Shown here one piece after another: positions 285 through 21,544 of a stretch of DNA of 64,000 bases (positions within the stretch are counted from its first letter, which is position 1; every line of letters begins with the position of its first letter). This DNA comes from Flavobacterium nitratireducens (GTDB taxonomy: Bacteria > Bacteroidota > Bacteroidia > Flavobacteriales > Flavobacteriaceae). The position numbers and the translations under genes are program-made. Under the pieces are notes generated by a model, which saw only the letters and a list, made by a program, of their open reading frames with translations, made no database searches and had not been told where the DNA came from. The stretch covers positions 806,001-870,000 of the forward strand of contig NZ_CP121111.1 in the NCBI RefSeq assembly GCF_029625335.1, written 5' to 3'.

Positions 285-311
285 AAGCCTTGCAGATGCA
301 GGGCTTTTTTT
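285..311 (+). terminator. Rho-independent terminator
   Basis: A 9-bp stem (AAGCCTTGC / GCAGGGCTT, one G-T pair) with a 4-base loop is followed by seven T. It closes the unit ending at 272. The same stem type occurs at 5941, also directly before a phage promoter. Confidence 0.85.
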
Positions 312-348
312 ATGTCACAGCAAAAAAGTAAGAGCCAAACTACTTTTA
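311..348 (+). promoter_or_regulatory. Putative phage promoter 1 (TATGTCACA type)
   Basis: TATGTCACA at 311-319 starts in the T-run of the preceding terminator. Exactly 30 bases after its first base lies TACTTTTA, a close match to the Bacteroidota -7 element TAnnTTTG. The next start codon (368) is 20 bases downstream. The two-box arrangement recurs at 1964, 5967, 13830 and 21507. That it is a phage-specific promoter is my inference. Confidence 0.65.
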
Positions 349-367
349 CAGTAAACCTACACGCTCT

Positions 368-682
368 ATGAAGATACTTGACTTTTTACGAGAAATCCCG
401 AAGCTGTTTGACTGGTATTTTAAACTGCCCCAACTCAAACGTATTTCACTCAATTATATCGTTCTCATCGCCTTACTAATTACGCTATCCTACTACAATG
501 ACAAGCAACATCGAGATAATTATGCTGTGCTTTCTAGCCGAATTGATAGTGTTAATGATTCTCGCGCCAAAGAACAGGAAAAATATACTGCGAAATTGGA
601 ATATTATACGGATAAGTTTAATCATCTCTTGGAAATGCTTTTGCAAAAAAAAGAACAAGACAAAATAAATCAGAAATTATGA
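368..682 (+). CDS. Membrane-anchored coiled-coil protein of the lysis cassette (i-spanin-like or holin-like)
   Basis: This 104-residue protein has a short basic N-terminus, one transmembrane segment (about residues 28-44, rich in I, V and L) and then a charged heptad-like helix to the end. A single N-terminal anchor plus a periplasmic coiled coil is the layout of inner-membrane spanin subunits; with only one segment, a class III holin is also possible. It is the first gene after promoter 1 and overlaps the next gene by 4 bases (ATGA), then come the amidase and a lipoprotein. Assignment to lysis rests on layout and neighbours, not on recognised homology. Confidence 0.55.
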   Translation: MKILDFLREIPKLFDWYFKLPQLKRISLNYIVLIALLITLSYYNDKQHRDNYAVLSSRIDSVNDSRAKEQEKYTAKLEYYTDKFNHLLEMLLQKKEQDKINQKL

Positions 683-888
683 AAACACTTTTTTCTACAA
701 TAGCACTGGTAGCCTTTAGTGCCTTGATGCTTTCGCCTGCCCTGCCTGCTGATTATCCGCCGAAGAAGGTAATTGAACAGCGTAAGGAAATTGTATGCAA
801 GGAGCGAAAACTGAATAATCTAATTACTGTAATTGAATCCGAACTGGATACAATTTCAGAACATAAAACCAATACTTATGGCAAATAG
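679..888 (+). CDS. Small exported protein of the lysis cassette
   Basis: A 69-residue protein starting at the ATGA overlap with the preceding gene. Residues 1-24 look like a Sec signal peptide (basic start, hydrophobic core, likely cleavage after LPA near 23). The mature part is a short charged helix with one Cys. It overlaps the amidase start by 11 bases, so translation is probably coupled. I know no family for it; an accessory lysis factor or small spanin component is a guess from context. Confidence 0.5.
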   Translation: MKTLFSTIALVAFSALMLSPALPADYPPKKVIEQRKEIVCKERKLNNLITVIESELDTISEHKTNTYGK

Positions 889-1408
889 AGCTAAGAATAT
901 CAGATACATTGTGGTGCATTGTCAGGCAGGACACGGAACGCTAAAAAGCATGCAGGATTTTTGGAAAACATCTTTAGGATGGAAATCTCCAGGATATGCC
1001 ACGTGGATAGATTATGATGGTACACGCCATAGGCTTGCGGATTATAATGCGGTTACTAATGGTGTTGCAGGATTTAATAGTCAATGTTTGCATATGAGTT
1101 ATCGTGGTGGTGTGTTACAGGAAAATGTAAAGGTTGCAGCCGATACCAGAACTCAGGCACAAAAGAATGCTATTCTTTTAGAAATCATCGATATGATGCA
1201 CTGGTTGCATGAGAATGGAAACGATTTGCAAAACGTGATGATCTTGGGTCATTATCAGTTTTCGGATGATAAGAACAAAAATGGTGCAATTGAACCTTGG
1301 GAACGTATTAAATCCTGTCCGTCTTTTGATGCGTATGAGGAATATGCTTTCCTGATGGAAAAGGAAAATGTGTTGTATCACAAATTGAAGTTACCTAAAA
1401 ACAGATAA
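878..1408 (+). CDS. Endolysin: T7-lysozyme-type N-acetylmuramoyl-L-alanine amidase
   Basis: A zinc amidase that should cleave the bond between N-acetylmuramic acid and the stem peptide at the end of infection. Three zinc ligands of the Amidase_2/PGRP fold are visible: the His in YIVVHC near residue 14, the His in ILGHYQF, and the Cys in KSCPSFDAY (T7 lysozyme also uses His, His, Cys). I chose ATG 878 over an upstream in-frame start at 833 because the domain begins at once (NIRYIVVH) and the upstream part is coding in the overlapping frame. It has no signal peptide, so it would need a holin. At 176 residues it is one catalytic domain. Confidence 0.85.
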   Translation: MANRAKNIRYIVVHCQAGHGTLKSMQDFWKTSLGWKSPGYATWIDYDGTRHRLADYNAVTNGVAGFNSQCLHMSYRGGVLQENVKVAADTRTQAQKNAILLEIIDMMHWLHENGNDLQNVMILGHYQFSDDKNKNGAIEPWERIKSCPSFDAYEEYAFLMEKENVLYHKLKLPKNR

Positions 1409-1409
1409 G

Positions 1410-1993
1410 ATGAAAAGAGTATTCTTTGATTATGTGTTCAAACTGTTTTTGGTTTGGCTATTGCTTTCTTGTTTTGGATGTGCTTCAAAAAAAAGAATAG
1501 TTCTAGTGAAATAGAACTACATACCAATACGGAGCTTCAAACAAGTGAAGGTGGTGCTACAATTGGTACCAATACCAATGTAGTAACTGAGATTAAAAAA
1601 AGTGTCAGTTCCAGTGGTTCTACAATTGAAAGAAATTATAAACCTGTTGATCCTACCAAGCCATCGAGCGTGACCACTCCGGATGGGAAAAAATATGTTT
1701 TGGATAATGCCGAAATCAATGAGAAGGAAACGACTCATACAAAAAATGAAAGTTCCTCTGAAAATACAGTGGATACTTCATCCAGTTCGGCTAACTATTG
1801 GGGAAAGGATTCATCCTTTATCAAATTGGAAGATATCCATTCGCAAAGCAATAACACAATGAACAGATCAGGTTTTAATTTTTGGTCTTGGTTATGGGTA
1901 TTAGCCCTTATAATTATTGTGATAATTCTAAACTACTTAAACAATCGCTTTAAGTGGGTTTCTTATGTCACAAGCTTTTTCGTTATTAAGTAA
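1410..1993 (+). CDS. Phage lipoprotein with C-terminal membrane segment, frameshifted in an A8 run
   Basis: From ATG 1410 the product begins with a hydrophobic signal and a lipobox (LLSC, Cys about residue 21), then hits a premature stop. The same protein continues in the neighbouring frame (Lys-rich, then Ser/Thr/Asn-rich, with a transmembrane helix about 30 residues from the end) to 1993. The frames meet at eight A, 1487-1494; nine would restore one reading frame of about 194 residues. Position right after the amidase and the lipoprotein signal suggest an outer-membrane spanin-like role, although a C-terminal anchor is unusual for that. Function is inference; the frame break is seen directly. 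Confidence 0.55.
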
Positions 1994-2001
1994 CATCTTC
2001 G
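1964..2001 (+). promoter_or_regulatory. Putative phage promoter 2, inside the end of the lipoprotein gene
   Basis: A perfect TATGTCACA at 1964-1972 is followed at offset 30 by CATCTTCG (1994-2001), a weaker -7 box. It lies 16 bases before the protease start at 2017. Box and spacing match the other four copies, although the first box is within coding sequence. Confidence 0.5.
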
Positions 2002-2016
2002 TAAAAAATATAAGCA

Positions 2017-2889
2017 ATGAAAGTAAATCCTTTATTAATGGACTTGGTTCGCGGAGAATGGCTGATGTCATTTGAGGGCTTAACCGCTTATGCTCCTATT
2101 GCACATAAAATAATTACTGGACAGGAATTAGACTTTTCACAGAATACGAAAAGTTTAGTTACGATTCTAGATTTAAATAATAAAGCAATAAAACCTAATC
2201 AGGATGGAATGATTGAAATTCCAAAAGGTTCGGTGGCAATTATTGATATGGTAGGTCCTATTATGAAATATGGAGACTGGTGTACTTATGGCGCGGATGA
2301 AATTGTAAATGCTTTGCGAATGGCTGATGCTAATCCTAATATCATTGGGATTGTGTTAAATGTAGATGGACCAGGAGGAGCGGTTTCGGCAATAGGTCCT
2401 TTTATCGAATTTGGAAAAACAAAAACAAAGCCTGTAGTGGCATTGATAGATCAATGTTGCTCTTTGCATTATTGGTCTGTGTGTGCGGTAGCTGATTATA
2501 TTATGGCTGATAATAATGTTTCGGCTTCGATAGGTTCTGTAGGTGTAATGACATCATTTGCCGATAACAGAAAATATTTAGAAAACTTAGGCTATGTCTT
2601 CCATGAAATCTATCCAAAGGAAAGCCAACACAAAAACGAAGCTTTTGCAATGGCTTTGAAGGGAGAATATGATTTGATAAAAGAAGAGCATCTATCACCT
2701 ATTGCTATCAAGTTTCAAGGAGCTGTAAAAGCAGCCAGACCCAACCTGCAAGAAGCTACCGGAGTATTAACAGGGAAAACATTTCCTGCTGATAAAGCCG
2801 TGGAATATGGGATGATAGATTCCATTGGTAGCCTTGACCAAGCCATGCAAAGGCTTCATGTAATGAGTGAATTAAACCACTATAAGTAA
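2017..2889 (+). CDS. S49-family (SppA/ClpP-fold) phage prohead protease
   Basis: A 290-residue serine peptidase expected to process scaffold or capsid precursor during head maturation. Visible family marks are the crotonase-like core (SVAIIDMVGPI), the oxyanion-hole glycines (DGPGGAVSAI), the nucleophile region CSLHYWSV (Ser within the motif usually read as SGGY or SAAY), and ASIGSVGVM. It has no signal peptide, unlike cellular SppA, and sits directly before the capsid gene, as in many tailed phages that use an S49 protease in place of the U35 type. The region just before the nucleophile is Cys-rich (DQCC), which is unusual. Confidence 0.8.
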   Translation: MKVNPLLMDLVRGEWLMSFEGLTAYAPIAHKIITGQELDFSQNTKSLVTILDLNNKAIKPNQDGMIEIPKGSVAIIDMVGPIMKYGDWCTYGADEIVNALRMADANPNIIGIVLNVDGPGGAVSAIGPFIEFGKTKTKPVVALIDQCCSLHYWSVCAVADYIMADNNVSASIGSVGVMTSFADNRKYLENLGYVFHEIYPKESQHKNEAFAMALKGEYDLIKEEHLSPIAIKFQGAVKAARPNLQEATGVLTGKTFPADKAVEYGMIDSIGSLDQAMQRLHVMSELNHYK

Positions 2890-2921
2890 ATTAATTAATA
2901 AACCTTTTAAATCTGACATCT

Positions 2922-3527
2922 ATGAAATGGAAATTTATGGCTAGAACAGTTGCTTTTATTACAGCATTGTTAGGCGAAAAAGAACTTCCGATTGATGGCG
3001 AAAAAAAAGCCCTTAATCTGAGTGCCGAGCAGTATCAAAAAATTGAAGCTGCTCTCGGTAAAAAAATGGCTGATGAAGCCATAAATGGTATTGACCAAGA
3101 AATCAAAAACATGGCAACTAACAATCTTGAACTGAAAGCTATTCAGGATGAGATTGACGCCTTAGTTGCCGAAACGAACCTTTCTCCGGAAGAAATTGAG
3201 AAAATTGCAAAAGATAAAAAAGGAGATAAATCCATTTTAGCTACTGTTCAGAATCTTGTTGCAAAACAAAAAGAGCAATCGGAAATGATTGCCAAATTAA
3301 TTCAACAACCTGAAGGAGATAATCCTTTGGCAATAATTAAAGGAGGATCTATGCAAAAAGTAACACATTCGGCTACACACTTATTTGGTTCTGCAAGTGC
3401 TATTGATGCCTTTGACGGACGTAACTGGAACAGAAGAGCGGCAGGTTTAGCGACATCGGCTACTGACTTTACCAGTCAGCCAAATATTGATAAACTGAAT
3501 AACGATATGGATTTGTATTCTCCGTGA
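2922..3527 (+). CDS. Major capsid protein, N-terminal piece (frameshifted)
   Basis: This frame encodes an N-terminal region of about 130 residues rich in Lys/Glu helices (a probable scaffold-like delta domain that the S49 protease could remove), then the start of the mature capsid (NWNRRAAG...). It stops at 3525-3527, while the sequence continues one frame over as LRENPEVIKSLQRD and on into the next entry. One extra base near 3515-3522 would explain the break. A second in-frame ATG lies at 2937. The role is inferred from position after the protease and from the size of the joined protein (about 713 residues). Confidence 0.6.
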   Translation: MKWKFMARTVAFITALLGEKELPIDGEKKALNLSAEQYQKIEAALGKKMADEAINGIDQEIKNMATNNLELKAIQDEIDALVAETNLSPEEIEKIAKDKKGDKSILATVQNLVAKQKEQSEMIAKLIQQPEGDNPLAIIKGGSMQKVTHSATHLFGSASAIDAFDGRNWNRRAAGLATSATDFTSQPNIDKLNNDMDLYSP

Positions 3528-5064
3528 GAATCCGGAAGTAATCAAATCATTGCAGCGTGATACTTTTGGTTTACCTACTTTCTGGCCTAAACGTACTAAA
3601 GTAGATGATAAGGTTTCTGACGGAAACATTGCAACTGCTGAAATTACGCAAGGTCGTAAATTGCCATGGTTGCCTAAAAACAAACAAACGATTCAGGCTG
3701 AAGAAGGACAAATTTTCCCGGTACAAATTGATATCGAGTACGTAGGTTACTATTTGCAAAAAATTGAAGCTTCATGGTTGAATATGATGAATAAAGAAGG
3801 TTCTAAACCTTATAAAGATTCATTTGTAAAATTCCTTGTTTCTGAAATTGACAAAAAAGCTAGAGTTGAAGATCGTGTGGCTACAATCAAAGGGGTGTAT
3901 GTAAAAACTCCGGATGATGCTACTGTAGGCGGAAAATCAATCAACCGTCAAAATGGTTTATTGTATTTAGCACAGCAAGCGCGTGATGTGACTAAAAAAT
4001 ACCGTGCGTTTGACCTAGGTATGCCAACAGAAACGAATATCGTTGACTATGTAGATAACATGATTAAATCATTGCCTCAAGACGTAAGAGAACAGCAAGG
4101 ATTAGTCTTATACTTATCTGATCAATGGTTAAGAGCTTACAAACGCAGATATGAAACATTGTTTGGTTTACATCAAGATTACAAAGGATATCCTGAAACT
4201 CCAAAAGATTACCCTAATGTGAAATTTGAGCGTTTGATTGATATGGCGGGTTCTGATTTTATGTTTATCACTTTTGATGATAATATTGAAATCCTTGAAA
4301 ATGTTCCGGCTGAAAAATCAATGTACCACTTTGAGTACTTGTTAAGAAAAATCTATATCTGGGCTGATTACAAAATGGGTGTTCGTTTCATCCATATTGG
4401 TAACACAGTTAAAGAAGGAGATCCATTAGAATTTGCAGTACAAACTTTATGGTCAAATACGGCTCCTGTATTCCCTAAAGATTTCTATGTACCGGTAAAT
4501 GATGACGAAACAGGAATTGTAAACGTGGCTTACAAAAATCTTTATGTAACTAAAGGTTGGGCTACTGACATTACTGAGTTTAAAGGAACTACTCCCGGTG
4601 CCGTAATTAAAATTAAAGGGGATACTTCGTTATTAGCGACTAAAAACGTAGTGAATAATGCCAAAATTGCATTGACTGATAATAATAAATTTGACCTGAA
4701 ATCAGGAGGTACTTTGACATTATTTGTCAAATCAGACGGAACTGTTAAGGAATTAAGCAGAACTACTGCCCCTGAAACTGTTGCTGCTGCTGAAGTAGAT
4801 TTTACAACAGCTAGTATAGATGCTAATGCAGGTGATACGTTTAACTACACTGGTGCCGGAGCTACTACTTTAACTAATATCCTTAACGGTGTAGAAGGTA
4901 AAACTATTACCATCAATAGAGAAAGCGGTGCATTAACAATTGCTAGTGTTACTGGAGTGATTTCTGTTGCTTCTACTGCGGTATTGGATGCAGAAGGAGA
5001 TACTATCCAATTAACAAAAGTTGACGGTGTTTGGATGGAAACAAGCAGATCAATTACTGCCTAA
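3528..5064 (+). CDS. Major capsid protein, main C-terminal piece (frameshifted)
   Basis: This continues the preceding entry in the +1 frame; no good start codon fits the frame boundary (the first candidate, at 3550, falls inside the conserved text). It forms the bulk of a capsid-like protein, followed after about residue 340 of this piece by a Thr/Ala/Gly-rich beta region with short repeats such as ANAGDTFNYTG, which looks like a surface decoration domain. Codon use is even and GC slightly above neighbours, as expected for a highly expressed structural gene. Identification rests on gene order (protease, capsid, next structural gene) and size. Confidence 0.65.
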
Positions 5065-5098
5065 TAAAATAATTTTTTAATTCTTAAAAAGTACGACA

Positions 5099-5917
5099 AT
5101 GACTTATATAAGACACAATGTAGTGAAGCCTCTGGGGAAATCCCCAGGAGCTGCTGCACCAAAAGACCCTAATGTTACAATAGTAGCTGTAGATGATATT
5201 TTAACTTTTCCTGTAACTGATGGAAAAGGAGTAAACTATGTAGGTAATTTTGTGATGAAAGCTGGAGCGAGAATGTACACTGTGTATATGACTCCATCAA
5301 AAATAAAAGCCGGATACGAATCTGACGGAGATGAGGATTCTATTACTTTCAAACAAAGATTTGAAGGAGAGCATCCTGGTCACGAATTGGAAATTGCCGA
5401 GTTTGTACAAAACTGGACTGGTGTAAATGTTATTATAATTTATGGTTCTTGTTCTGATAATTTCAGAAAAGTGATAGGTACCAAGTGTGCTCCGGTACAA
5501 TTGAAACCATCATTAACTGACGATAATGATTCCAGAAAACATATGCTTGTTTTTGAACAATTTGCTAAATCAGGATATGTAATTGGACACTATACAGGTG
5601 CTTTGGTTTTTGCTGATCCTTTTGCAGTTGTTTCTGCTTCAGCTATAGCAGTAAATTCAACAAATGGTTATATTTATCAACTTCCTGCTGAAGTTGCTGC
5701 TATTGAGTTTTCAGAAATTACTTTGAATCATGGTGATGTTATTACTCTTATTGGAGGTGGTGGTGATACTCCGGCAACTTTGTCTCCAGGCGTTGAGAAT
5801 AAAGATGCAATTTTAAAAGGCTTCTCTGTTTGGATTGCTCTTGAAGGGGCTACTTTAACATTAGAAGTGTTTAAAGCCGGATCGCTTACTTTCTTAATTG
5901 AGAAATCAAGAGGATAG
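5099..5917 (+). CDS. Phage structural protein downstream of the capsid
   Basis: A 272-residue soluble protein without signal peptide or membrane segment. Most of it looks beta-rich (alternating V/I/T stretches) with a Gly-rich turn (GGGGDTP) near residue 220 and a C-terminal beta hairpin. It is in the capsid unit with 34 bases between genes, and a terminator follows. Candidates are a head decoration protein, a minor capsid protein or a tail tube protein. I cannot tell these apart from sequence alone. Confidence 0.5.
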   Translation: MTYIRHNVVKPLGKSPGAAAPKDPNVTIVAVDDILTFPVTDGKGVNYVGNFVMKAGARMYTVYMTPSKIKAGYESDGDEDSITFKQRFEGEHPGHELEIAEFVQNWTGVNVIIIYGSCSDNFRKVIGTKCAPVQLKPSLTDDNDSRKHMLVFEQFAKSGYVIGHYTGALVFADPFAVVSASAIAVNSTNGYIYQLPAEVAAIEFSEITLNHGDVITLIGGGGDTPATLSPGVENKDAILKGFSVWIALEGATLTLEVFKAGSLTFLIEKSRG

Positions 5918-5940: not shown

Positions 5941-5967
5941 AAGCCTTGCAAATGCAAGGCTTTTTTT
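5941..5967 (+). terminator. Rho-independent terminator closing the capsid unit
   Basis: A perfect 9-bp stem (AAGCCTTGC / GCAAGGCTT, loop AAAT) followed by a T-run. Nearly the same hairpin as at 285, and again a TATGTCACA box starts in its T-run. Confidence 0.9.
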
Positions 5968-6004
5968 ATGTCACACGGTTTTAGGGAGGTAATTACCAAC
6001 TTTA
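5967..6004 (+). promoter_or_regulatory. Putative phage promoter 3 (TATGTCACA type)
   Basis: TATGTCACA at 5967-5975 and CAACTTTA at 5997-6004, again offset by 30 bases. It precedes the gene starting at 6039 by 35 bases. Confidence 0.65.
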
Positions 6005-6038
6005 CCATCATATCAAAATTAACATAAAGAGATATACC

Positions 6039-6905
6039 ATGAGACAAGATGTTGTAGAGTTCTTCCAGAACTTACCTATTGAAAAATCGGAACAGTTTAA
6101 TAAAGCGTTTGAACTCTACCGAAAATCCCCAAATAAGAATGTGGGCGTAGAACGCTCGATGAATATTCAGGGATATTCGGAGCGCACGCTTGAAAATCTT
6201 TTGTATGACTTGCAAAAAATGCATGGCATTAGTGATGTGGAGAAAGTGAAAGTAATCAGTATTCAGAAAGCAGAGAGCAGTTCTAATACTGATAATGATG
6301 ATTTGGAAAATGAGAAAGCAATTGAAGGAATTGAAAGTGAAATACCTGATGATTCTGATCTAGGTGAAATCATTGTAAATGGTGCTGAAGTTGTGACTGA
6401 TGCTTCATTACCATTGCGTGAGGAATTCTTATTCTTGAATAATCCTGATTGTCCGAATGAGTTGAAAATTTTGGTTGCGGATAAAATGACTGCTTGGAAA
6501 GTGTACACTGAAAACCATGATAAGCTGTTGAAAATTGAAGCGGGAGAATTGGAAGTATCAAAAGAAGAGCAGACAGAAATTGCGAGATTAGCTGCAGAAG
6601 CTTTTGAGGAAAACCAAAAGATTTACAATGAATTGAACGCTTATAAGGAAACTGGAAAGCTTTTAGGTGTTCATCCTCTTTTCAAAACATTGCAAATGCA
6701 ACGTGAAGTTGAGGAAATGGATCAGGCGGCATTAATTGCTTATAAAAATTCGAGTGCAAAATATTTTTCTACAAATAAGAAAGATTTAGCAAAAGCAGAA
6801 GCTAACAAAGACGAAGAGAAAATCGCTGAGATTACTACTCGTGTTGCGGACCGCGAACAAAAGCTTGCTATGGTTAATAAGAAATTAGGCGTGCCTGCTA
6901 AATAG
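6039..6905 (+). CDS. Phage protein of unknown function, coiled-coil rich
   Basis: A 288-residue acidic protein, first in the unit after promoter 3. The N-terminal 70 residues are basic and helical (RQDVVEFFQNLPIEKSEQF...), then comes an acidic low-complexity linker (NTDNDDLENE...), then long charged helices with heptad character to the end (EIARLAAEAFEENQ...; DREQKLAMVNKKL). The layout would suit a scaffold, a connector or a DNA-packaging accessory. I do not recognise a family. The stop is 1 base before the ATG of the next gene, so both are probably co-translated. Confidence 0.55.
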   Translation: MRQDVVEFFQNLPIEKSEQFNKAFELYRKSPNKNVGVERSMNIQGYSERTLENLLYDLQKMHGISDVEKVKVISIQKAESSSNTDNDDLENEKAIEGIESEIPDDSDLGEIIVNGAEVVTDASLPLREEFLFLNNPDCPNELKILVADKMTAWKVYTENHDKLLKIEAGELEVSKEEQTEIARLAAEAFEENQKIYNELNAYKETGKLLGVHPLFKTLQMQREVEEMDQAALIAYKNSSAKYFSTNKKDLAKAEANKDEEKIAEITTRVADREQKLAMVNKKLGVPAK

Positions 6906-9039: not shown

Positions 9040-9882
9040 ATGAGCAGGAGGACCCACGTAAGTCTTAACGATACCGATGTACAAGGCCGTTTTGCTTCTT
9101 GGCTTAAAACGGTCATTTTCCTGATTGCTCCCAAGCATTTGCGATTGATTGCTGGTCGTGCTACTGCAAAAACTGCGGATATCATTGCGGAACGTTCTCA
9201 AAACGTGATGTACGATATGCCTAAAAGCTATCAGGTTCTAGTTTCGGATACTTATACCAATTGTTTGAAAAACATTGTTCCTACCCTGCTGGAAGGATGG
9301 AACCGTAAAGGGTGGAAATACGGAATTCATTATGTGACTGACGAACGCCCTCCCTCCCACTTTATGCTTCCCTACAAACCTGTAGAAACTTACAAGCATA
9401 CAATTTCAATTTTCAATGGCTGTTTTGTCAACTTGGGGTCACTTGATCAACCAGGAGGATTAGCAGGTGGATCTTATCAGCATATGTATGGTGATGAAGC
9501 TCGCTTATTAAAACAGCAAAAACTTAAAAAACTGACTCCTGCTATTCGTGGTGAATATGTAATGTTTGGCCATTCGGTGTATTATCGTGGTACCACATTT
9601 ACTACGGATATGCCAAACATTATTGATGGTGATGATGATTGGATTATGCAGGATGAAAAGAACATGGATTTGGAACAGGTGAAACTGGCTCTTGAAGTGG
9701 GATTGGTGCTGAATGAAATAAAACGTGAAATTCTTTCGTACAAACAGGCAGGAGATTACAAAGCCATCGAAAGACTGCAAGGAAACTTGATGCGATGGAC
9801 GGAAAGATGGATTCGTGTTCGCAAGGATTTGACTGTTCTTTTATGTGGTTTCCTCATTTGTAAATGTGGATATCCTTACTGA
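9040..9882 (+). CDS. Terminase large subunit, ATPase piece (frameshifted)
   Basis: The N-terminal ATPase half of the packaging motor. A Walker A-like motif (AGRATAKT, about residues 38-45) and a Walker B (HMYGDEA, Asp-Glu, near 150) are visible. The frame runs into nonsense after VRKDLTV; the conserved text continues in the next frame as FFYVVSSFVNVDIL. The shift is near 9832-9842 and needs one base removed (or two added). The gene may begin a little upstream: the 45 bases before ATG 9040 encode plausible protein in another frame (IPGFPLKVFPDEQEDPRKS), hinting at a second break. Confidence 0.65.
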   Translation: MSRRTHVSLNDTDVQGRFASWLKTVIFLIAPKHLRLIAGRATAKTADIIAERSQNVMYDMPKSYQVLVSDTYTNCLKNIVPTLLEGWNRKGWKYGIHYVTDERPPSHFMLPYKPVETYKHTISIFNGCFVNLGSLDQPGGLAGGSYQHMYGDEARLLKQQKLKKLTPAIRGEYVMFGHSVYYRGTTFTTDMPNIIDGDDDWIMQDEKNMDLEQVKLALEVGLVLNEIKREILSYKQAGDYKAIERLQGNLMRWTERWIRVRKDLTVLLCGFLICKCGYPY

Positions 9883-10744
9883 AGGTTATTTTGCGGATAG
9901 TTTGAAAGCTCTGGGAATAGAAGAATTTAAGAGTGCCATCCTTTCGCTAAAAATCAATTTGAAGAAAGGGGAAAAATTCTACGGTAATCTTGGTGAGCAT
10001 CATTTTTATGATGATGGGATTCTGAATGATTACTATGACCGCTATCTTTTGACGGATGAAATTGAGGAAAGCAGTTTGGCATTGCGATATATCGACCACA
10101 ATGCGAAACTGGAAGGCGGTATGGACTTTGGTGATATGTGTAGTTTGATCACAGCGCAGCCACGAGGAAACTACTTATATTGCCTAAAAGAGTTCTATAC
10201 ATTGGCTCCGGAAAACGAAATCCAGATGGGGCAAAAGTTCCGTGAATTTTTCAAGCATCACAAAGTAAAGGTTTTGGATTTGTATTATGATCGTTCGGGA
10301 AATCAGAATTCGAAAACCAAACGTGACTGGGCAAATGCCGTGAAAAAAGCGATTGAATTTGAAAACGGGGTATCTACCGGATGGGTAGTAAACTTAATGT
10401 CCGAGAATCAGGCTACGATATACCAGGAGGAGGAATTCCAATTTGCCAAAGCGATGATGGGCGAAACGACAAAAGGGCTTTTGAAATTAAAAATTGATAA
10501 ATTCCAATGCAAGTGCCTTAAGAGTTCGCTTGAATTGACTAAAATAAAAGTAAAAAAAGATACCAAAACCGGTTCTGCTTCCATTCACAAGGATAAATCA
10601 TCGGAAAGTTTGCCTATCCTACTCCGCCCTATGTATTCTACGAACTTTTCGGATGCATTTAAGTATTTGATTTATCGCAGAGCATTGGTGGATTTGGTTA
10701 ACGATCATTCAAGTTATACGGGAATGGACCCGAGTGTGGTGTAG
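9845..10744 (+). CDS. Terminase large subunit, nuclease piece (frameshifted)
   Basis: The C-terminal half of the same protein. The RNase H-like nuclease domain is recognisable from GGMDFGDMCSLITAQ (first acidic residue, Asp) and from VLDLYYDRSGNQNSK (second Asp); a third acidic residue would lie near DFSDAFKYL-like text at the end (NFSDAFKYLIYR). The listed start (GTG 9845) is only where the frame becomes open and is not a true start. The two pieces together give about 565 residues, normal for a large terminase. Confidence 0.65.
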   Translation: MVSSFVNVDILTEGYFADSLKALGIEEFKSAILSLKINLKKGEKFYGNLGEHHFYDDGILNDYYDRYLLTDEIEESSLALRYIDHNAKLEGGMDFGDMCSLITAQPRGNYLYCLKEFYTLAPENEIQMGQKFREFFKHHKVKVLDLYYDRSGNQNSKTKRDWANAVKKAIEFENGVSTGWVVNLMSENQATIYQEEEFQFAKAMMGETTKGLLKLKIDKFQCKCLKSSLELTKIKVKKDTKTGSASIHKDKSSESLPILLRPMYSTNFSDAFKYLIYRRALVDLVNDHSSYTGMDPSVV

Positions 10745-13829: not shown

Positions 13830-13867
13830 CATGTCACACCAATATTACTATGGTAATAGTACTATTG
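13830..13867 (+). promoter_or_regulatory. Putative phage promoter 4 (TATGTCACA type)
   Basis: CATGTCACA at 13830-13838 (one mismatch to the box) and TACTATTG at 13860-13867, again at offset 30. It lies 26 bases before the gene at 13893, which opens the portal unit. Confidence 0.6.
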
Positions 13868-13892
13868 TAGTACATAAATAATAGGTAATTAC

Positions 13893-14171
13893 ATGGCACA
13901 AACCATCAAGCTTTACACAGCATTAAAGAAGATGAGGGAAATGACAGAAAAAGGTATTCCTTTCTCATTCTCTTTCATGTCTTATAATGCTAGCAATGGT
14001 ACATCTGATGGGATTAAGCAGGTTACTAAAGCGCAATTGAGAGTTGGGTACAAGGATAACCAAAGCTTAAAAGCCAGTGTCCTGATAGGATATGTCAATG
14101 CAAAGGAGGGTAATAGATGGTTTTACCTACCACTATTATTAAGTTTCAACGGATATAAAGTAATTCCATAA
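13893..14171 (+). CDS. Small phage protein, first gene of the portal unit
   Basis: A 92-residue soluble protein, probably alpha/beta (QTIKLYTALKKMREM..., QLRVGYKDNQSLKASVLIGYVN). It is 5 bases upstream of the portal gene and immediately follows phage promoter 4. It may be a head-tail connector or packaging accessory. No family is recognised. Confidence 0.55.
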   Translation: MAQTIKLYTALKKMREMTEKGIPFSFSFMSYNASNGTSDGIKQVTKAQLRVGYKDNQSLKASVLIGYVNAKEGNRWFYLPLLLSFNGYKVIP

Positions 14172-14176
14172 TAGCT

Positions 14177-15550
14177 ATGAACATAGAATATATTGGCAGA
14201 GATGCTATTGTAGATGCGCCAGACGTTGCGTTCACATACCAAGTTAGCGAAACCCCTCGTGATTTCTATAAATTCAAAGGTGATAGTAATAACCTTGATT
14301 GGGATAGTCATTCAAGTTTTATTGGTGATTACTTGGTGCATCCTTATGGGAACAATAACGATTTGCCTGATATCATTAAGAACACTGTTCAAACAAACTA
14401 CATTGCACCAGGTATAATGAAAAAGAAAACCCAATTGATTTGGGGTTTAGGTCCGCAATTATATACTGAAGATATTCAAGATAATTTATTAAAGCGTACT
14501 TGGGTAAAGGATGCCGAAGTAATGGCTTGGCTTCGCTCATGGAATTACGAGGAATACTTATTAAGAGCTTGTACAGATTTCCAAAACATAGAAGGAGTAT
14601 TCTCGCGATATGAATTAAACAGAGGTGCAAGAATTGGAGATAAAGCATCAATAGCCAGTATCAAACATTTGTATCCGGACAGAACAAGATTAGCAACTCT
14701 TAAGAGTTACAATTCAAGAGAGGCAACTCATGCTCTTGTATCTGACAGGTCTTTCACTAAATCACATAATCAATCTGAGTACAAAGTATATCCTCTATTT
14801 GATTTCCTTAATCCATTTGCTAATGCAAATTCTGTACTGTATTCCAATATGTACAGCTTTTGCACGGACTACTATACTGTTCCTGATTTATACGGTTCCT
14901 TAGAATGGTTGAATAGGTCAACATCAGTTCCTTTAATCTTTAAAGCCTTATCAAAAAACTCGATTAACTTAAAATATCATATTGTTTCCCCTCAAAAATA
15001 TTGGGATAATAAACGAAAAGAAATTCAGGAAAATTGCACTAAATCAGGACAAGTCTATAAGGAGAAAATGCTTTTGGAATACCAAGCAGAATTCTTAAAA
15101 AAGATTTCTGTTGTGTTATCAGGAGAGGAAAATACAGGTAAGTATTTACACACCACAAAAGAATTCACAGTTGAGGGAACTAACCTGCTAGAACATGGTT
15201 GGGAAATTAAAGTAATCGACCAAAACATCAAAGATTTTGTTGAAGCTCAGATAAAAATTTCAGAGCGTGCCGATCATGCATTATCATCAGGATTGAATTT
15301 ACATTCCGCTTTAGGAAATGTATCTGAAACAGGTAAAAATGATTCAGGTTCTGAACAAATCTATGCACTTAAAACATTCTTGCAAACTGGGATTGATATT
15401 CCTGAAATGATAATTATGAAAGCTATTAATTATGCTCTTAGTATCAATTTTCCAAATAAAGAACTCAAACTTGGGTTTTACCATGTAAATCCAGAAAAAG
15501 AACAAAACATTGCTCCAAAAGACCGTTTAATCAATCAAGCTGCAAATTAA
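14177..15550 (+). CDS. Putative phage portal protein
   Basis: A 457-residue protein of the size of Bacteroidota phage portals. Portal-like traits: an N-terminal region facing the capsid (HPYGNNNDLPDIIKNTV...), Trp/Tyr-rich core (LIWGLGPQLYTED; EVMAWLRSWNYEEYLL), a long C-terminal helical part (IKDFVEAQIKISERADHALSSG) and a tail of the type found after the stem (GSEQIYALKTFLQTGIDIPEMIIMKAINYAL). It lies first among connector-sized genes and the terminase is upstream. Portal is the best candidate, but homology is not certain by eye. Confidence 0.6.
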   Translation: MNIEYIGRDAIVDAPDVAFTYQVSETPRDFYKFKGDSNNLDWDSHSSFIGDYLVHPYGNNNDLPDIIKNTVQTNYIAPGIMKKKTQLIWGLGPQLYTEDIQDNLLKRTWVKDAEVMAWLRSWNYEEYLLRACTDFQNIEGVFSRYELNRGARIGDKASIASIKHLYPDRTRLATLKSYNSREATHALVSDRSFTKSHNQSEYKVYPLFDFLNPFANANSVLYSNMYSFCTDYYTVPDLYGSLEWLNRSTSVPLIFKALSKNSINLKYHIVSPQKYWDNKRKEIQENCTKSGQVYKEKMLLEYQAEFLKKISVVLSGEENTGKYLHTTKEFTVEGTNLLEHGWEIKVIDQNIKDFVEAQIKISERADHALSSGLNLHSALGNVSETGKNDSGSEQIYALKTFLQTGIDIPEMIIMKAINYALSINFPNKELKLGFYHVNPEKEQNIAPKDRLINQAAN

Positions 15551-15552
15551 TT

Positions 15553-16560: not shown

Positions 16561-16869
16561 ATGAAAAGATTATTTGTCAAAATCAGCGCCTTTTTTACCT
16601 ATTTAATCAATTTCAGAACGATTAAAAAATTCCAAAAAATTAACGGAAAACTGGAACAAACTCTTGAAGATAGAGAGGTAGACAGAATTATTCTAAAAGG
16701 GAAAATTGTAAAGATGGTTCGAAAATTCCTTCGTGCAGATGCAAAATCAAAATTCATTCCTAAACACATGAGGAATAATACTGAAATCAGAGAAAGAGTT
16801 TTAGCTGAATTTGGCGAACAAATGAACAAACTGGATATAAAAATCAATGATAAACTAGAATTGGTATAA
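16561..16869 (+). CDS. Small basic phage protein
   Basis: A 102-residue Lys/Arg-rich helical protein (IKKFQKINGKLEQTLEDREVDRII...). A hydrophobic stretch near residues 8-18 is too short for a clear membrane anchor. The stop shares bases with the ATG of the next gene (TAATG), so translation is probably coupled. Unknown function; probably structural or an assembly chaperone. Confidence 0.5.
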   Translation: MKRLFVKISAFFTYLINFRTIKKFQKINGKLEQTLEDREVDRIILKGKIVKMVRKFLRADAKSKFIPKHMRNNTEIRERVLAEFGEQMNKLDIKINDKLELV

Positions 16870-17765: not shown

Positions 17766-18225
17766 AATTAGAGAATATCAGGCCGAAGTCAAAGCGCAGC
17801 TTAAAGATGAACAGGATAAACCCTTGTTCAATTATATCAATATGATAATTGATAAGCCTAATTTATCCAAATTACTAAAGGAACGTGAAGAGGAAGAAAA
17901 CACCTATCTCATTGCGGTATTGCCTGAATTCCGATTAAAAGGAAGCGAGGACAACACCAAGTGGGTCAACATTCTATCCTTTTTCATCCTCAATAAAACC
18001 GATTATTCAGAACACGATCAGGATTCGTTTCTGAACATATTTGTTGAAACTCAAGTAAAAGCAAAAGCATTTGTCGATAAATTATTATTTGACAAAGCTA
18101 ATCATACCGGAGCAATGTGTGATTTTCTCAATTTATTGGATGAAAATTCTATAGCGGTAAATCCTGTTTGGATGATGGACGGATGCAATGGTTGGGTTGT
18201 GGAAATAAATTTGGATACGCTTTAA
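17749..18225 (+). CDS. Phage protein of the connector-tail block
   Basis: A 158-residue protein with an acidic centre (EREEEENTYLIAVLPEFRLKGSEDN) and a C-terminal beta part with Trp residues (NPVWMMDGCNGWVVEINLDTL). It starts inside the end of the preceding gene. Size, order and the closing beta hairpin would suit a head-tail joining or tail terminator protein; this is inference. No recognised family. Confidence 0.5.
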   Translation: MLPINRIREYQAEVKAQLKDEQDKPLFNYINMIIDKPNLSKLLKEREEEENTYLIAVLPEFRLKGSEDNTKWVNILSFFILNKTDYSEHDQDSFLNIFVETQVKAKAFVDKLLFDKANHTGAMCDFLNLLDENSIAVNPVWMMDGCNGWVVEINLDTL

Positions 18226-18228
18226 TTA

Positions 18229-18246
18229 TTCCGTATATTTACGGAA
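18229..18246 (+). promoter_or_regulatory. 18-bp palindromic operator before the small HTH gene
   Basis: TTCCGTA-TATT-TACGGAA, the same half-sites as at 13496-13513. A -7-like TATATTTA lies within it (18234-18241), and the next start codon is 13 bases downstream. A repressor bound here would directly cover the promoter. Confidence 0.6.
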
Positions 18247-18258
18247 AAATATAAAGCC

Positions 18259-18456
18259 ATGACAACAGAAGAAATCGATGTACTTTTTGAAGAAGTAATC
18301 TCTAAAAAAGCCATTTACACCCAATTAGAAGGGATTAGTGAAGATAAAATTTACAACATCCGTAAAGGGCGTATCAAAGTAACCTTAGGCGATAAGCTTA
18401 ACATCTTGTATCAATTAAAACGAATTGAAATTATAAAAACCAATGAGCCTGCTTGA
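18259..18456 (+). CDS. Small HTH-type protein
   Basis: A 65-residue protein resembling a minimal helix-turn-helix unit: KAIYTQLEGISEDKIYNIRK followed by a helix (TLGDKLNILYQLKRIEII). It stands directly behind the TTCCGTA palindrome, so it may bind that site and the matching operator of the minus-strand accessory operon. It overlaps the next gene by 14 bases. Regulatory role is inference. Confidence 0.55.
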   Translation: MTTEEIDVLFEEVISKKAIYTQLEGISEDKIYNIRKGRIKVTLGDKLNILYQLKRIEIIKTNEPA

Positions 18457-18820
18457 TTCACGCGAACAACTCTCTGACCAAATACTAGAAGGTCGCTTTA
18501 TCCGTAAAGTGAGCCAGACAATGGCGCAGGATTTGGATTTGGCCACAAGCAACTATATGTCAAGTCGTGGGTTTGAGAGTGAAGATTGGTATTCCGGGCG
18601 TGGCTTTGTAGCCACCGAAAACGGTTTGGATTACTCCCATCTTAAAAAACACCGTTTTGTGGATATGAAAACCCGAACTTCAAAAAAAGGAATAAAGCGT
18701 AAGAAAGCCCACCCAGTTCACAACCGAATCATTTGGGGGCATTACAACAATATGATCAAGGAACTACATTTTGGTTTTACTGCTGCCGTCAAGGAAGAGT
18801 TACGAAAGTTAGAAGAATAA
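18443..18820 (+). CDS. Phage morphogenesis-like protein
   Basis: A 125-residue basic protein. Its central part (DWYSGRGFVATENGLDYSHLKKHRFVDMKTRT) and the C-terminal helix (HPVHNRIIWGHYNNMIKELHFGFTAAVKEEL) recall HK97-gp10-like or virion morphogenesis proteins that lie just before the tail genes. It overlaps the preceding HTH gene and is followed by a terminator, so it closes the portal unit. Family assignment is tentative. Confidence 0.5.
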   Translation: MSLLDSREQLSDQILEGRFIRKVSQTMAQDLDLATSNYMSSRGFESEDWYSGRGFVATENGLDYSHLKKHRFVDMKTRTSKKGIKRKKAHPVHNRIIWGHYNNMIKELHFGFTAAVKEELRKLEE

Positions 18821-18825
18821 AAATA

Positions 18826-18848
18826 AATCCCTCCATCGTGAGGGATTT
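18826..18848 (+). terminator. Terminator closing the portal unit
   Basis: Perfect 8-bp stem AATCCCTC / GAGGGATT with a 6-base loop; the T-run is short. Confidence 0.75.
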
Positions 18849-18883
18849 TCTTATATTTACACTCTAACTTTAAAAATCAGACT

Positions 18884-19447
18884 ATGAAAAATTTTTTCTT
18901 TTTATTATTAATCATTCCTGTAATTGGATTTTCTCAAGAATCAAAATTATCCACACCTTCATTGTTTATTGAAAAATCATCCTATGTTCAAATAAATATG
19001 GATGAAAATGAAAAAGCTATTTTTAAATCTGGTCTAGGTGAATCAGTTGAATTTTATCCAAGTGAAATAATTGATTTAAAATCTAATAATAAATTAAATG
19101 GATTAGCGATTGAAAGTACGTACGTTATTGGTAGTCGAGGTATGGCTACTATTTCTGCGAAAGAAACTGCATGGGTGGGTATGGATGAAATATCGGATTT
19201 AATTGTATGGTTTGAAAAATATGTTATACCCAATTTGGATGCAGCTGCTGGGAAAAACAAAACAGTTAAATATATTTTTAATAGTAAAGAAGTTATGTTG
19301 AAATTTGAAATTTATAATGGTACTCAAATTTTTTCAGTGATAATTAATAATACATTGTATAAAGACAAATATTTCTGGACTGAAGCTAAAGTAAAAGACA
19401 TACCTAATGTTTTAAAATCATTAAAGTATTTACAAACAAAATCATAA
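18884..19447 (+). CDS. Exported cargo (moron) protein of unknown function
   Basis: A 187-residue protein with a clear Sec signal peptide (KNFFFLLLIIPVIGFS, cleavage near residue 18). The mature part is beta-rich with no recognised domain. It is flanked by a terminator and has its own AT-rich upstream region (TATATTTA at 18852), so it is expressed apart from the structural genes. Base composition (very A/T rich) differs from the capsid and tail genes. This is typical of a lysogenic conversion gene; the role is unknown. Confidence 0.55.
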   Translation: MKNFFFLLLIIPVIGFSQESKLSTPSLFIEKSSYVQINMDENEKAIFKSGLGESVEFYPSEIIDLKSNNKLNGLAIESTYVIGSRGMATISAKETAWVGMDEISDLIVWFEKYVIPNLDAAAGKNKTVKYIFNSKEVMLKFEIYNGTQIFSVIINNTLYKDKYFWTEAKVKDIPNVLKSLKYLQTKS

Positions 19448-19454
19448 GTTAACA

Positions 19455-19775
19455 ATGAAAAAAATATTATTTCTTTTTTTATTAATTAATTTAATTTCTT
19501 GTGGAAATCCAGAACCTAATCCCTGTTTAATATCTGAAGATTTTATAAAAACAGATTTAAATTATCCTGATGAAGCTGAATTTTCTTCTTTTGATTGTTC
19601 TACTGAAACAAATTCAGATGGAAGTTATACTGTTTTAAGAAAAATAAGTGCTAAAAATGCTTTTGGAGTACAATCTTCTTATGTTTATAAAGTCAAATTA
19701 TCTTTTAATGGTGGGGATGCTTTAGATTCTAATAATTGGAATTTAATTTCAATGCAGTCTGAAGAATATAAATAA
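19455..19775 (+). CDS. Lipoprotein of the prophage cargo operon
   Basis: A 106-residue protein with a lipoprotein signal (KKILFLFLLINLISC, lipobox LISC with Cys at 16). The mature part has four further Cys residues (GNPEPNPC..., FDC...) and a beta-like C-terminus. It lies 7 bases after the preceding exported protein and its stop overlaps the next ATG. A periplasmic or surface role in the lysogen is likely, details unknown. Confidence 0.55.
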   Translation: MKKILFLFLLINLISCGNPEPNPCLISEDFIKTDLNYPDEAEFSSFDCSTETNSDGSYTVLRKISAKNAFGVQSSYVYKVKLSFNGGDALDSNNWNLISMQSEEYK

Positions 19776-19879
19776 TGTATCACAACTACCACTCCCGCCG
19801 ATTACAAGACCCTAACTGGTGGCTATTTGTCTTAATAGTCATTATGGTAATTACCATTATATCCTACTTTATCGAGTAG
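19775..19879 (+). CDS. Micro membrane protein, 34 residues
   Basis: Start ATG overlaps the stop of the lipoprotein gene (TAATG). The product has a basic N-terminus (MYHNYHSRRLQDPN) and one transmembrane helix (WWLFVLIVIMVITIISYF), and the gene ends inside the following terminator. Coupling and a clean hydrophobic helix argue that it is real. It completes the exported cargo operon. Confidence 0.5.
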   Translation: MYHNYHSRRLQDPNWWLFVLIVIMVITIISYFIE

Positions 19880-19890
19880 GATATTTTTTT
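19859..19890 (+). terminator. Terminator of the cargo operon
   Basis: Perfect 9-bp stem ATATCCTAC / GTAGGATAT, loop of 8, then eight T. It overlaps the end of the micro membrane gene. Confidence 0.9.
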
Positions 19891-19906
19891 TGTATGCAAA
19901 TGCACA

Positions 19907-19932
19907 TTGTTTAAAATTAAAATATATCTTTG
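19907..19932 (+). promoter_or_regulatory. Bacteroidota-type promoter
   Basis: TTG at 19907-19909 and a perfect -7 box TATCTTTG at 19925-19932, spacer 15 (a little short). The next start codon is at 19955. Confidence 0.55.
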
Positions 19933-19954
19933 CTTTGCGAAATCAAAATAAACT

Positions 19955-20128
19955 ATGAAACTTATGTTTCTACCTGACAATTTAAATAATTCACCCACAA
20001 CATTGAAGTTCGGAGGAAGACCGGACATCTTCGAGTTTATTCTTGGTTTCGCAGTCTTTGTTGTGGGCTATTTAAAAATATCTCGAAAAAATGCGAAACC
20101 AAGAGAACAAAAAACCATCACACCGTGA
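19955..20128 (+). CDS. Small membrane protein, 57 residues
   Basis: ATG 19955 lies 22 bases after the -7 box. The product has a short N-terminal region (KLMFLPDNLNN...), a single transmembrane segment (FEFILGFAVFVVGYL, about residues 26-40) and a basic tail. The gene overlaps the next one by 38 bases in another frame. Function unknown; a membrane-associated phage factor. Confidence 0.5.
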   Translation: MKLMFLPDNLNNSPTTLKFGGRPDIFEFILGFAVFVVGYLKISRKNAKPREQKTITP

Positions 20129-20372
20129 TGTGATGCCTTCACTGGCAAAATTCGCCCAGGATGCCTACTTCGAATTTGAAGTGGACGAACTACCGGACGA
20201 AATGCAGGAAATTACCAATCTATTAATGGAAACCGAACAGGCAGACCAACAGCATGTAAGGCTTAAAGCCTTAAACTGCCTTAAGTTTATCTCTGATTTT
20301 TCAAAGGCCCTTAAACCTTTTTCTAGAGATGTTATTGTATTGGAAACCAACAAACACATTAAACATGTCTAG
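20091..20372 (+). CDS. Small acidic phage protein
   Basis: A 93-residue protein, acidic and helical (MPSLAKFAQDAYFEFEVDELPDEMQEI...). The start (ATG 20091) lies within the preceding small gene. Unknown function. It belongs to a run of small overlapping genes before the antirepressor. Confidence 0.5.
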   Translation: MRNQENKKPSHRDVMPSLAKFAQDAYFEFEVDELPDEMQEITNLLMETEQADQQHVRLKALNCLKFISDFSKALKPFSRDVIVLETNKHIKHV

Positions 20373-20493
20373 CTTGGTTCCAGTTAAGATAATCTACGCC
20401 AAGGGCATTAGGTTATCAATGAAAAAAAGACTTTCAGAGAAGCTATGGAATTTGTTTGGAAATCCCCTGCCTTTTCTGATTACGAACCTTTAA
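20365..20493 (+). CDS. Micro protein, 42 residues (tentative)
   Basis: ATG 20365 overlaps the preceding stop by 8 bases. The product is basic in the middle (MKKRLSEKLWNLF) with a hydrophobic end. It overlaps the next gene by 49 bases, which weakens the call. It explains the 70-base gap between neighbours. Confidence 0.35.
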   Translation: MSSLVPVKIIYAKGIRLSMKKRLSEKLWNLFGNPLPFLITNL

Positions 20494-20774
20494 AAATGGT
20501 ATTTACCAGCACGGGCAAAGTACTGTTTATGGATAAAAACGCTTTCCACTCCTATTTATCCGGTAATATCTCCCAACAGGAACTCATTGAATTAACCGAA
20601 TGTGATGATCTGTATCGAAATACAGAAGATATAGAACACAATGGTTATGAAATTGAAGCCGGACATCTATGGAAAGCTTCATTAAATGTCCTCACTCTTA
20701 TTGATGATGACAATCATGTAGAAACAAAACTCGATGTCACACGGTTTGAAATAGTTGAACCGTATAATGATTAA
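20445..20774 (+). CDS. Phage protein of unknown function
   Basis: A 109-residue protein, probably alpha/beta (FVWKSPAFSDYEPLKMVFTSTGKVLFMDKNAF...), acidic overall. Last gene before a terminator. I do not recognise a family; it is soluble with no signal. Confidence 0.5.
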   Translation: MEFVWKSPAFSDYEPLKMVFTSTGKVLFMDKNAFHSYLSGNISQQELIELTECDDLYRNTEDIEHNGYEIEAGHLWKASLNVLTLIDDDNHVETKLDVTRFEIVEPYND

Positions 20775-20777
20775 AAA

Positions 20778-20804
20778 AAAAGCCACATAATTGTGGCTTT
20801 TTTT
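20778..20804 (+). terminator. Rho-independent terminator
   Basis: AAAAGCCACA / TGTGGCTTTT stem, loop TAAT, long T-run. Confidence 0.9.
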
Positions 20805-20840
20805 GTTTACAAATGTTAAAATTTAATATTTTATTAACAT

Positions 20841-20875
20841 AACTATCTGATAATCAAATAGTTATTATATATTTG
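20841..20875 (+). promoter_or_regulatory. Promoter with 23-bp near-perfect palindrome before the antirepressor
   Basis: Half-sites AACTATCTGAT and ATCAAATAGTT flank a central A (20841-20863, one mismatch). A perfect -7 box TATATTTG follows at 20868-20875, 31 bases before the start codon at 20907. The palindrome lies in the -33/spacer region, the expected place for a repressor operator. Its ligand is unknown. Confidence 0.6.
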
Positions 20876-20906
20876 TAGCGTAAAACTTATAAACAAACAA
20901 TATTAT

Positions 20907-21461
20907 ATGAGTACACAATTAATTTCAACAATCAACAATGAGAGAATTGTAATTGTAGTCGATGAAGACGGACAAAAATTTGTTCCAATTAAACCAATTT
21001 GCGAAGCTTTGGGAGTAAATTATACTTCTCAATTAGAAAAGTTAGAAAATGATGAATTAATAGATTCAGTTATCCCCCTGAGGGGGACAACTGGAGCTGA
21101 TGGAAAACAGTATCAGATGAAATGTATTCCGTTAGAATTTGTTTTTGGCTGGTTGTTTTCTATTTCCTCTAAAAACGTGAAAGAGGAAGTTCGCGAAGGA
21201 TTAATTCAATATAAAAGAATTTGTCATAAAGCCCTTTATGCTTACTTCACAGAACACGCTTCATTCATTGAAGAAAAAGAAAAAAAATTGAATGAATATG
21301 TAAGTAAAGAAACCGAAGCAAGAAATCAATTTAAAAATGCCGAAAAATTGCTTAAGGAAATCCGAACCGAAATGAATGTTTTCAGAAAAACAACTTTCGA
21401 AGAATGGAAAGCAAATAACAATCAACTATCAATGTACCAGGTACAAGGATTTGAAGAATAA
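20907..21461 (+). CDS. Phage antirepressor, P22_AR_N type
   Basis: A 184-residue protein whose N-terminal 110 residues match the P22 antirepressor N-terminal domain as I know it: ERIVIVVDEDGQKFVPIKPICEALGVNY, then GADGKQYQMKCIPLEFVFGWLF. The C-terminal 60 residues are a charged coiled coil (FIEEKEKKLNEYVSKETEARNQF). Such proteins bind prophage repressors and relieve repression. Its separate promoter with a large palindrome fits tight control. The target repressor could be the XRE protein at 11152 or one outside the window. Confidence 0.8.
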   Translation: MSTQLISTINNERIVIVVDEDGQKFVPIKPICEALGVNYTSQLEKLENDELIDSVIPLRGTTGADGKQYQMKCIPLEFVFGWLFSISSKNVKEEVREGLIQYKRICHKALYAYFTEHASFIEEKEKKLNEYVSKETEARNQFKNAEKLLKEIRTEMNVFRKTTFEEWKANNNQLSMYQVQGFEE

Positions 21462-21481
21462 AAAAACATAAAACAAGCCTT

Positions 21482-21507
21482 AAGCCCTGTATTTACGGGG
21501 CTTTTTT
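21482..21507 (+). terminator. Terminator after the antirepressor
   Basis: AAGCCCTGT / ACGGGGCTT stem with one T-G pair, loop ATTT, then six T. A TATGTCACA box begins in the T-run, as at 311 and 5967. Confidence 0.85.
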
Positions 21508-21544
21508 ATGTCACAATTTTTCCTCTAAACTATTGCCAACTTTA
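21507..21544 (+). promoter_or_regulatory. Putative phage promoter 5 (TATGTCACA type)
   Basis: TATGTCACA at 21507-21515 and CAACTTTA at 21537-21544, offset 30, identical in the second box to promoter 3. It lies 17 bases before the tape measure gene. Confidence 0.65.

Follow-up and report, generated by a model that had tools for sequence, protein, structure and literature searches.

A candidate activator for probable, lineage-specific late promoters in a Duneviridae-like Flavobacterium prophage

How does a temperate phage of Flavobacterium switch on its late genes when they are spread over several separate units? The question is raised by a 64,000-nucleotide stretch of the Flavobacterium nitratireducens genome (assembly GCF_029625335.1, contig NZ_CP121111.1, positions 806,001 to 870,000 of the forward strand; hereafter the window), in which a prophage carries a similar pair of short boxes ahead of five late units. 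Judged by its genes, the prophage is a temperate siphophage related to Duneviridae; its portal is 61% identical to that of Flavobacterium phage laban6-1, 44% to that of 6H and 39% to that of Cellulophaga phage Ingeline, and the relatives' homologues span most of the late region. Its left end lies outside the window and its early region is in locus L024. We favor, with a probability of about two in three, the reading that the five sites are late promoters activated at their upstream box by LateR, the name that we give here to an unannotated phage protein of about 180 residues, which would work together with the main sigma factor of the host.

Paired boxes ahead of five late units

At each site TATGTCACA or, in one case, a one-mismatch variant is followed by a TAnnTTTG-like octamer (the -7 box), which begins exactly 30 bases after the start of the first box at all five sites. 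The next ATG after the five octamers is at 368, 2017, 6039, 13893 and 21561, respectively. In F. psychrophilum the -7 box was mapped at -12 to -5 (PMC9723704). If the same positions apply, the first box would span -42 to -34 and would abut or slightly overlap the -33 element, and the starts given below would leave leaders of 11-30 bases.

311..319, + strand: upstream box of the lysis-unit promoter, TATGTCACA; 38 bases separate the lateR stop and the box
341..348, + strand: -7 box TACTTTTA for the lysis unit; transcription would start near 353
1964..1972, + strand: upstream box of the protease/capsid promoter, TATGTCACA; within the 3' end of an open reading frame (ORF) at 1454-1993
1994..2001, + strand: -7 box CATCTTCG for the protease unit, weakest among the five; transcription would start near 2006
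5967..5975, + strand: upstream box of the 6039 unit, TATGTCACA
5997..6004, + strand: -7 box CAACTTTA for the 6039 unit; transcription would start near 6009
13830..13838, + strand: upstream box of the portal unit, CATGTCACA; in the same place in relatives
13860..13867, + strand: -7 box TACTATTG for the portal unit; transcription would start near 13872
21507..21515, + strand: upstream box of the tape-measure unit, TATGTCACA; in the same place in relatives
21537..21544, + strand: -7 box CAACTTTA for the tape-measure unit; transcription would start near 21549

The first-pass annotation had described both sets of boxes, their offset, their distances to the start codons and the five units that they head (lysis, protease/capsid, 6039, portal and tape measure), and all of this was found again on rechecking. 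So was its remark that three first boxes begin inside the T-run of a terminator: by inspection of the sequence, the boxes at 311, 5967 and 21507 start within a T-run 3' of a GC-rich inverted repeat. The box at the protease site has counterparts at the corresponding place in laban6-1 and 6H. As a word, TATGTCACA shows no excess in the window when one mismatch is allowed (12 occurrences against 14.1 expected), and exact copies number four on the + strand and none on the - strand (raw counts). The significance of the boxes therefore comes from the fixed 30-base offset, the strand, the gene context and the relatives, and not from the one-mismatch word count. The combined pattern TGTCACA-N21-NAnnTTTR occurs four times in the 2.99-Mb host genome, with three of these in the prophage, and a reversed control of the pattern occurs nowhere in that genome.

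Our comparison covered 113 portal-bearing loci together with named phages, and upstream stretches were read, the window included, for the tape measure (68 loci), the small gene preceding the portal (portal-small; 96), the 6039 gene (50), the protease (28) and the lysis gene (2 homologues). In phage laban6-1 all five corresponding units are preceded by TGTCACA and, at an identical offset from it, by a -7-like octamer. The lysis, protease, 6039 and portal-small homologues of 6H have ATGTCTTAAA on their 5' side; the word there is GTCCTTTTAA for gp01, gp29, gp42 and gp47 of Ingeline and GTCCTTTT for gp9, gp13 and gp40 of BT-TP2. In an offset test from which the window, near-copies and stretches of fewer than 38 letters were left out and in which up to 27 offsets were allowed, the best -7-like octamer fell at +28 from the T of TGT at 48 of 57 distinct TGTCACA sites, 14 of 17 TGTTACA sites, 22 of 24 TGTAACR sites and 11 of 11 GTCC sites; at 10 TGTCTTAA sites it fell at +27 (7) or +28 (3). 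The -7 box was kept at a fixed offset in every box class examined, with G and TT as its strongest positions, and the aligned sites of relatives have almost no conserved letters in the spacer between the boxes. Strand is conserved as well. In 20 loci of TGTCACA phages (417 kb; L034 and L069 are one phage by portal identity) the late strand has 68 copies of the word and the opposite strand 6, and 47 of the 68 late-strand copies have an octamer at offset 28 (7 copies at the next best offset). In 35 loci of other-box phages (741 kb) TGTCACA occurs 8 and 12 times on the two strands and never with an octamer at that offset. A motif-free count of recurrent 9-mers placed the same words in the top five for many, not all, loci. 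The first-pass annotation had read the five sites as a phage late regulon marked by a conserved first box, and had named a lack of conservation in relatives as what would refute this; the sites, spacing and strand conserved there support it. Its suggestion that the first box replaces the -33 TTG holds to the extent that no TTG is conserved after the box in the 57 distinct TGTCACA sites, with the refinement that the box would sit at the edge of the -33 element.

Among the relatives, TGTCACA proved to be only one of several lineage-specific words. Other lineages have TGTTACA, TGTAACA, TGTCTTAAA or TGTCCTTTT at the same sites with the same spacing; further words in the loci are TGTAACGC, CGCCTTGC, TGTCAGCAC, TGTCCTCTTAA, TGTCCATTTA, TTGGCAC and GTGAGGCA, and among the stretches read a few loci (such as L114, L115, L117 and L119) have no evident box. 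Records named Flavobacterium include phages with TGTCACA (laban6-1, L029, L035 and L042) and phages with TGTCTTAAA (6H), TGTTACA (L032, at the tape measure) or CGTTACA (L038), and TGTCACA is also found in a Winogradskyella-named metagenome-assembled genome (L034). Since phages of a single host genus use different words, and words recur across genera, the box word, on the records compared, follows the phage and not the host. A phage-encoded reader fits this pattern and a host factor does not.

Some further features were seen around these sites. The distance from the T of TGT to the start codon is 40-41 bases at 16 of the 31 distinct TGTAACR sites and at 12 of the 81 TGTCACA sites (portal-small and protease sites; for example in L040, L041, L107 and L113). 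This spacing would place the start point at or next to the ATG, so that leaderless messages are probable at these sites of the relatives; in F. psychrophilum 5.5% are leaderless (PMC9723704). A GGCAAC...GTTGCC hairpin with a T-run stands between the upstream word and the start codon in L106 and L108 (portal-small and 6039 sites) and in L105 (6039 site), where a terminator-like element thus overlaps the promoter. By eye, an imperfect inverted repeat of the type ATTTTnnnnAAAAT often follows the tape-measure -7 box towards the ATG (21537-21560 and relatives). The palindrome GTAATTAC (GCAATTGC in other phages) lies at 5989-5996, next to the -7 box of the 6039 unit, and at 13885-13892, before the portal-small start codon. 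Of the upstream stretches, 33 of 96 for portal-small and 27 of 50 for 6039 contain it, where shuffling expects 0.36 and 0.24; nine loci have it at both sites, with the identical word at both in 9/9 (L026 and L103 are one phage). Its pattern is consistent with a second, co-diverging operator that may possibly have another reader.

LateR and its covariation with the box

The candidate reader is encoded directly 5' of the first late promoter, and its gene runs into the left edge of the window.

1..272, + strand: 3' part of lateR, the proposed late activator; the whole gene is L024:13730-14272 (805730-806272 on the contig) and starts 271 bases left of the window

Among the LateR homologues listed, those with a name are called hypothetical protein; the copy in the window belongs to phrog_21888, of unknown function, and has no Pfam match. 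BLAST found LateR in 21 of 25 early regions. Three of the four records that it missed were recovered by a profile search, and BT-TP2 only with a profile containing the BT-TP2 copy; among further records the profile matched 38 of 40 at E 0.01. At E 0.001 it matched 9 of 397 genomes of the family, 4 of 395 of the class and 5 of 299 of the genus, counts that each include the genome of the window and in which some matches are partial. A box with an acceptable octamer begins within 150 nucleotides after the lateR stop in 43 of 56 phages, and within 20 nucleotides in 35 of 56; nine of the 56 have no box after the stop, several of these with little sequence past the gene. AlphaFold modelling of the L002 homologue (43 sequences) gave a predicted local distance difference test score (pLDDT) of 87.6 and a predicted template modelling score (pTM) of 0.84. 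In the model a mixed alpha/beta domain at the N terminus is followed by a long helix, and the C-terminal part is predicted to form a helix-turn-helix (HTH; helix 153-166). The same helices were predicted when the C-terminal domain was modelled alone (pLDDT 83.1, pTM 0.70).

Each LateR column was scored for its association with box position 4 (C or T/A) over 44 nonredundant phages. The best column by far was 158 (0.66; next column, 0.38), which lies in the predicted recognition helix. The residue there is R, K or Q in all 31 C phages, while in T/A phages it is aliphatic in 10 and Q in 3. Basic and amide side chains suit a C:G pair and aliphatic ones suit the methyl group of thymine, so the pattern fits ordinary recognition chemistry. 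The sister phages L061 (TGTCACA, R) and L062 (TGTTACA, Q) differ in both word and residue. A portal tree of 53 phages implies six switches of the box letter and four of the residue class, and an aliphatic residue 158 is confined to T/A rows (14 of 18 T/A, 0 of 35 C). When four gains were placed randomly by branch length, confinement as strict as that observed arose in 56 of 17,260 trials. Predictions for position 4 that were written beforehand were right for four fresh phages. Because box words change together with this predicted DNA-binding residue, LateR is the probable late switch.

From the sites, their spacing, strand and conservation, the lineage-specific words, the adjacency of lateR and the covariation, all of them read from the sequence, we infer DNA binding, activation, its timing, the use of sigma-A and the start points along the following lines. 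Host RNA polymerase with its main sigma factor would read the -7 box. In place of a -33 element, LateR would use its predicted C-terminal HTH to bind the upstream box, which is single and asymmetric (about -42 to -34), and would recruit or stabilise polymerase through another surface, perhaps the N-terminal mixed alpha/beta domain, the bound activator compensating for the missing -33 contact. With lateR directly 5' of the first late promoter, the late units would come on once LateR accumulates, and box word and recognition helix would have diverged together between phage lineages. More tentatively, at slightly under even odds, we extend this to a lock and key in Bacteroidota phages: a small activator of a new family and a single-word box, often beginning right at its stop codon, would co-diverge, one helix position would largely tell TGTC from TGTT/TGTA, and the late genes of coexisting prophages would be mutually insulated.

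Several observations weigh against the role that we assign to LateR and the boxes, or limit the support for it: (i) the stretch 5' of the annotated tape measure has no box in 6H or Ingeline; (ii) the LateR profile has no match at E 0.01 in L114 or in L052, which has a TGTCCTTT site; (iii) comparison of the predicted LateR structure with a library of solved structures gave nothing at E 0.001; (iv) L038 combines CGTTACA with K and is a counterexample to the rule for residue 158; (v) the simulation of randomly placed gains is post hoc, column 158 having been noticed before testing; (vi) a sign test on independent pairs was without power and (vii) the four fresh phages with correct predictions all have C, the commoner letter. 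To these is added the behavior of a second phage regulator, described next.

Other candidate readers of the box

Two regulator-like families stand out in the 25 early regions, LateR and a LuxR/GerE-type protein. The latter is encoded by the second gene of the early operon (L024:727-1305), a near-universal position, and has a conserved cysteine-rich stretch. It might be this protein that reads the box at the same late promoters, with LateR a helper or in some other role, a reading that we consider unlikely. It is present in 24 of the 25 early regions and has a clear GerE-type HTH, a class that frequently activates next to the -35 element. Over 34 phages, its GerE-domain columns tracked the whole box class as well as LateR did (L137 0.71, T146 0.65 and K166 0.58, against 0.70 for R172, the best LateR column), although deep phylogeny drives much of this association. 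At position 4 the two proteins part: in the 32 phages with both regulators LateR column 158 is best (0.60), whereas the best LuxR column (D89, 0.44) lies outside the HTH. The sharpest single contrast between the two regulators, on these sequences, is that of L014 and L016 (CGCCTTGC) with L116 (TGTAACA), where the LuxR stretch EGSFNVFRT-LYQKLGN differs by one residue and the LateR recognition helices differ at many. The LuxR-type gene is, moreover, early in position and far from the late sites, and the protein was not found in BT-TP2 by BLAST. LateR is thus preferred over it as the reader, not proven.

The first-pass annotation had offered an activator or an alternate sigma factor as the factor acting at the first box. 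The activator half of this has gained from the sigma-A-like -7 box and from a covarying candidate; the sigma half has not, as no sigma-factor Pfam family was found in the 40 prophage ORFs scanned. A phage sigma factor reading both boxes as -35 and -10 would account for the fact that TGTCACA is also the -35 consensus of ECF41 sigma factors (PMC3426412), and the LuxR-type protein of Ingeline matches, over its HTH, a PHROG family named sigma factor (2.3e-4). It is nonetheless very improbable given that lineages differ in the first word but keep a TAnnTTTG-like second box, and that the spacer is 21 bases long, against 16 with CGTC for ECF41 (PMC3426412). Just as little credit is due to a host regulator, or housekeeping polymerase alone, using the sites with the box as a host operator. 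The -7 box is indeed that of the host, and the boxes often follow a terminator T-run, where some other role for them is conceivable; against this stand the several words among Flavobacterium phages, the recurrence of one word in other genera and the two-box pattern in the host genome, with three of its four copies in the prophage.

The late units, known systems and implications

The units headed by the five promoters are as follows.

368..1408, + strand: lysis unit, with 368-682 unknown and 833-1408 endolysin-like (phrog_18908, phrog_21433)
2017..5917, + strand: protease, capsid-region ORFs and the next gene (PF01343, phrog_53, phrog_21862, phrog_19897)
6039..6905, + strand: first gene of the 6039 unit, function unknown (phrog_21662); homologues in laban6-1, 6H, Ingeline and BT-TP2
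13893..15550, + strand: portal unit, with the small gene at 13893-14171 and the portal at 14177-15550
21561..29669, + strand: tape measure (21561-25931) and the tail genes after it (phrog_25337, phrog_19217, phrog_19879)

An antirepressor-like gene of the P22_AR_N/Ant type (20907-21461) lies directly 5' of the tape-measure promoter. Relative to laban6-1, a capsid-region protein, a terminase-like protein and the integrase are each split into two ORFs (2922-5064, 9040-10744 and 29661-30886), and the last residues of LateR in the window depart from the family; these splits and the atypical LateR end (1-272) reflect either a decaying prophage or assembly errors of the indel type. Next to the integrase ORFs are three tRNA genes (Arg, Pro and Ser; 30944-31224), and the stretch is a likely integration region.

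Phage-encoded activation of late promoters is already known. In phage Mu, several late promoters at scattered genome positions depend on one phage activator, the C protein, which binds a dyad; the aligned sites of our phages have instead one asymmetric box and unconserved spacer letters. In kind, the arrangement found here is a shared upstream element before several late units. The middle promoters of T4, where MotA and AsiA bring about sigma appropriation, resemble it in having a phage box instead of a -35 element, a -10-type element of the host at a constant distance and a phage activator of two domains, the C-terminal one DNA-binding (predicted, in the case of LateR) (PMC6755090). The MotA box is centred at -30, however, while the prophage box lies near -38, and MotA binds DNA with a double wing (PMC6755090), while LateR has a predicted HTH without a confident structural relative; because box position and predicted fold differ, we do not class the system as MotA-type. 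ECF41 promoters share the TGTCACA upstream element with one of our box classes only, and they have a spacer of 16 +/- 1 and CGTC where the prophage has a spacer of 21 and a -7 box that is not CGTC, with other words in other classes (PMC3426412). Sigma-A promoters of Flavobacterium likewise have a TAnnTTTG-like box shortly before the start codon (PMC9723704); they differ in that here no -33 TTG is conserved and a phage-specific word lies just upstream. The main text of that F. psychrophilum transcriptome paper has no words beginning with phage or prophage. Within open-licence PMC papers, we found no account of Duneviridae late promoters or of a LateR-family activator, and as far as seen in those papers the LateR family, the promoter class and the co-diverging word are new.

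If the proposed reading is true, it would name the late switch for a group of flavobacterial and Bacteroides phages and assign a function to a conserved protein that is annotated as hypothetical and belongs to no Pfam family. The box words and recognition helices would then provide a natural series of matched protein-DNA pairs from which recognition rules could be read and tested, as well as orthogonal promoter-activator pairs for Bacteroidota.

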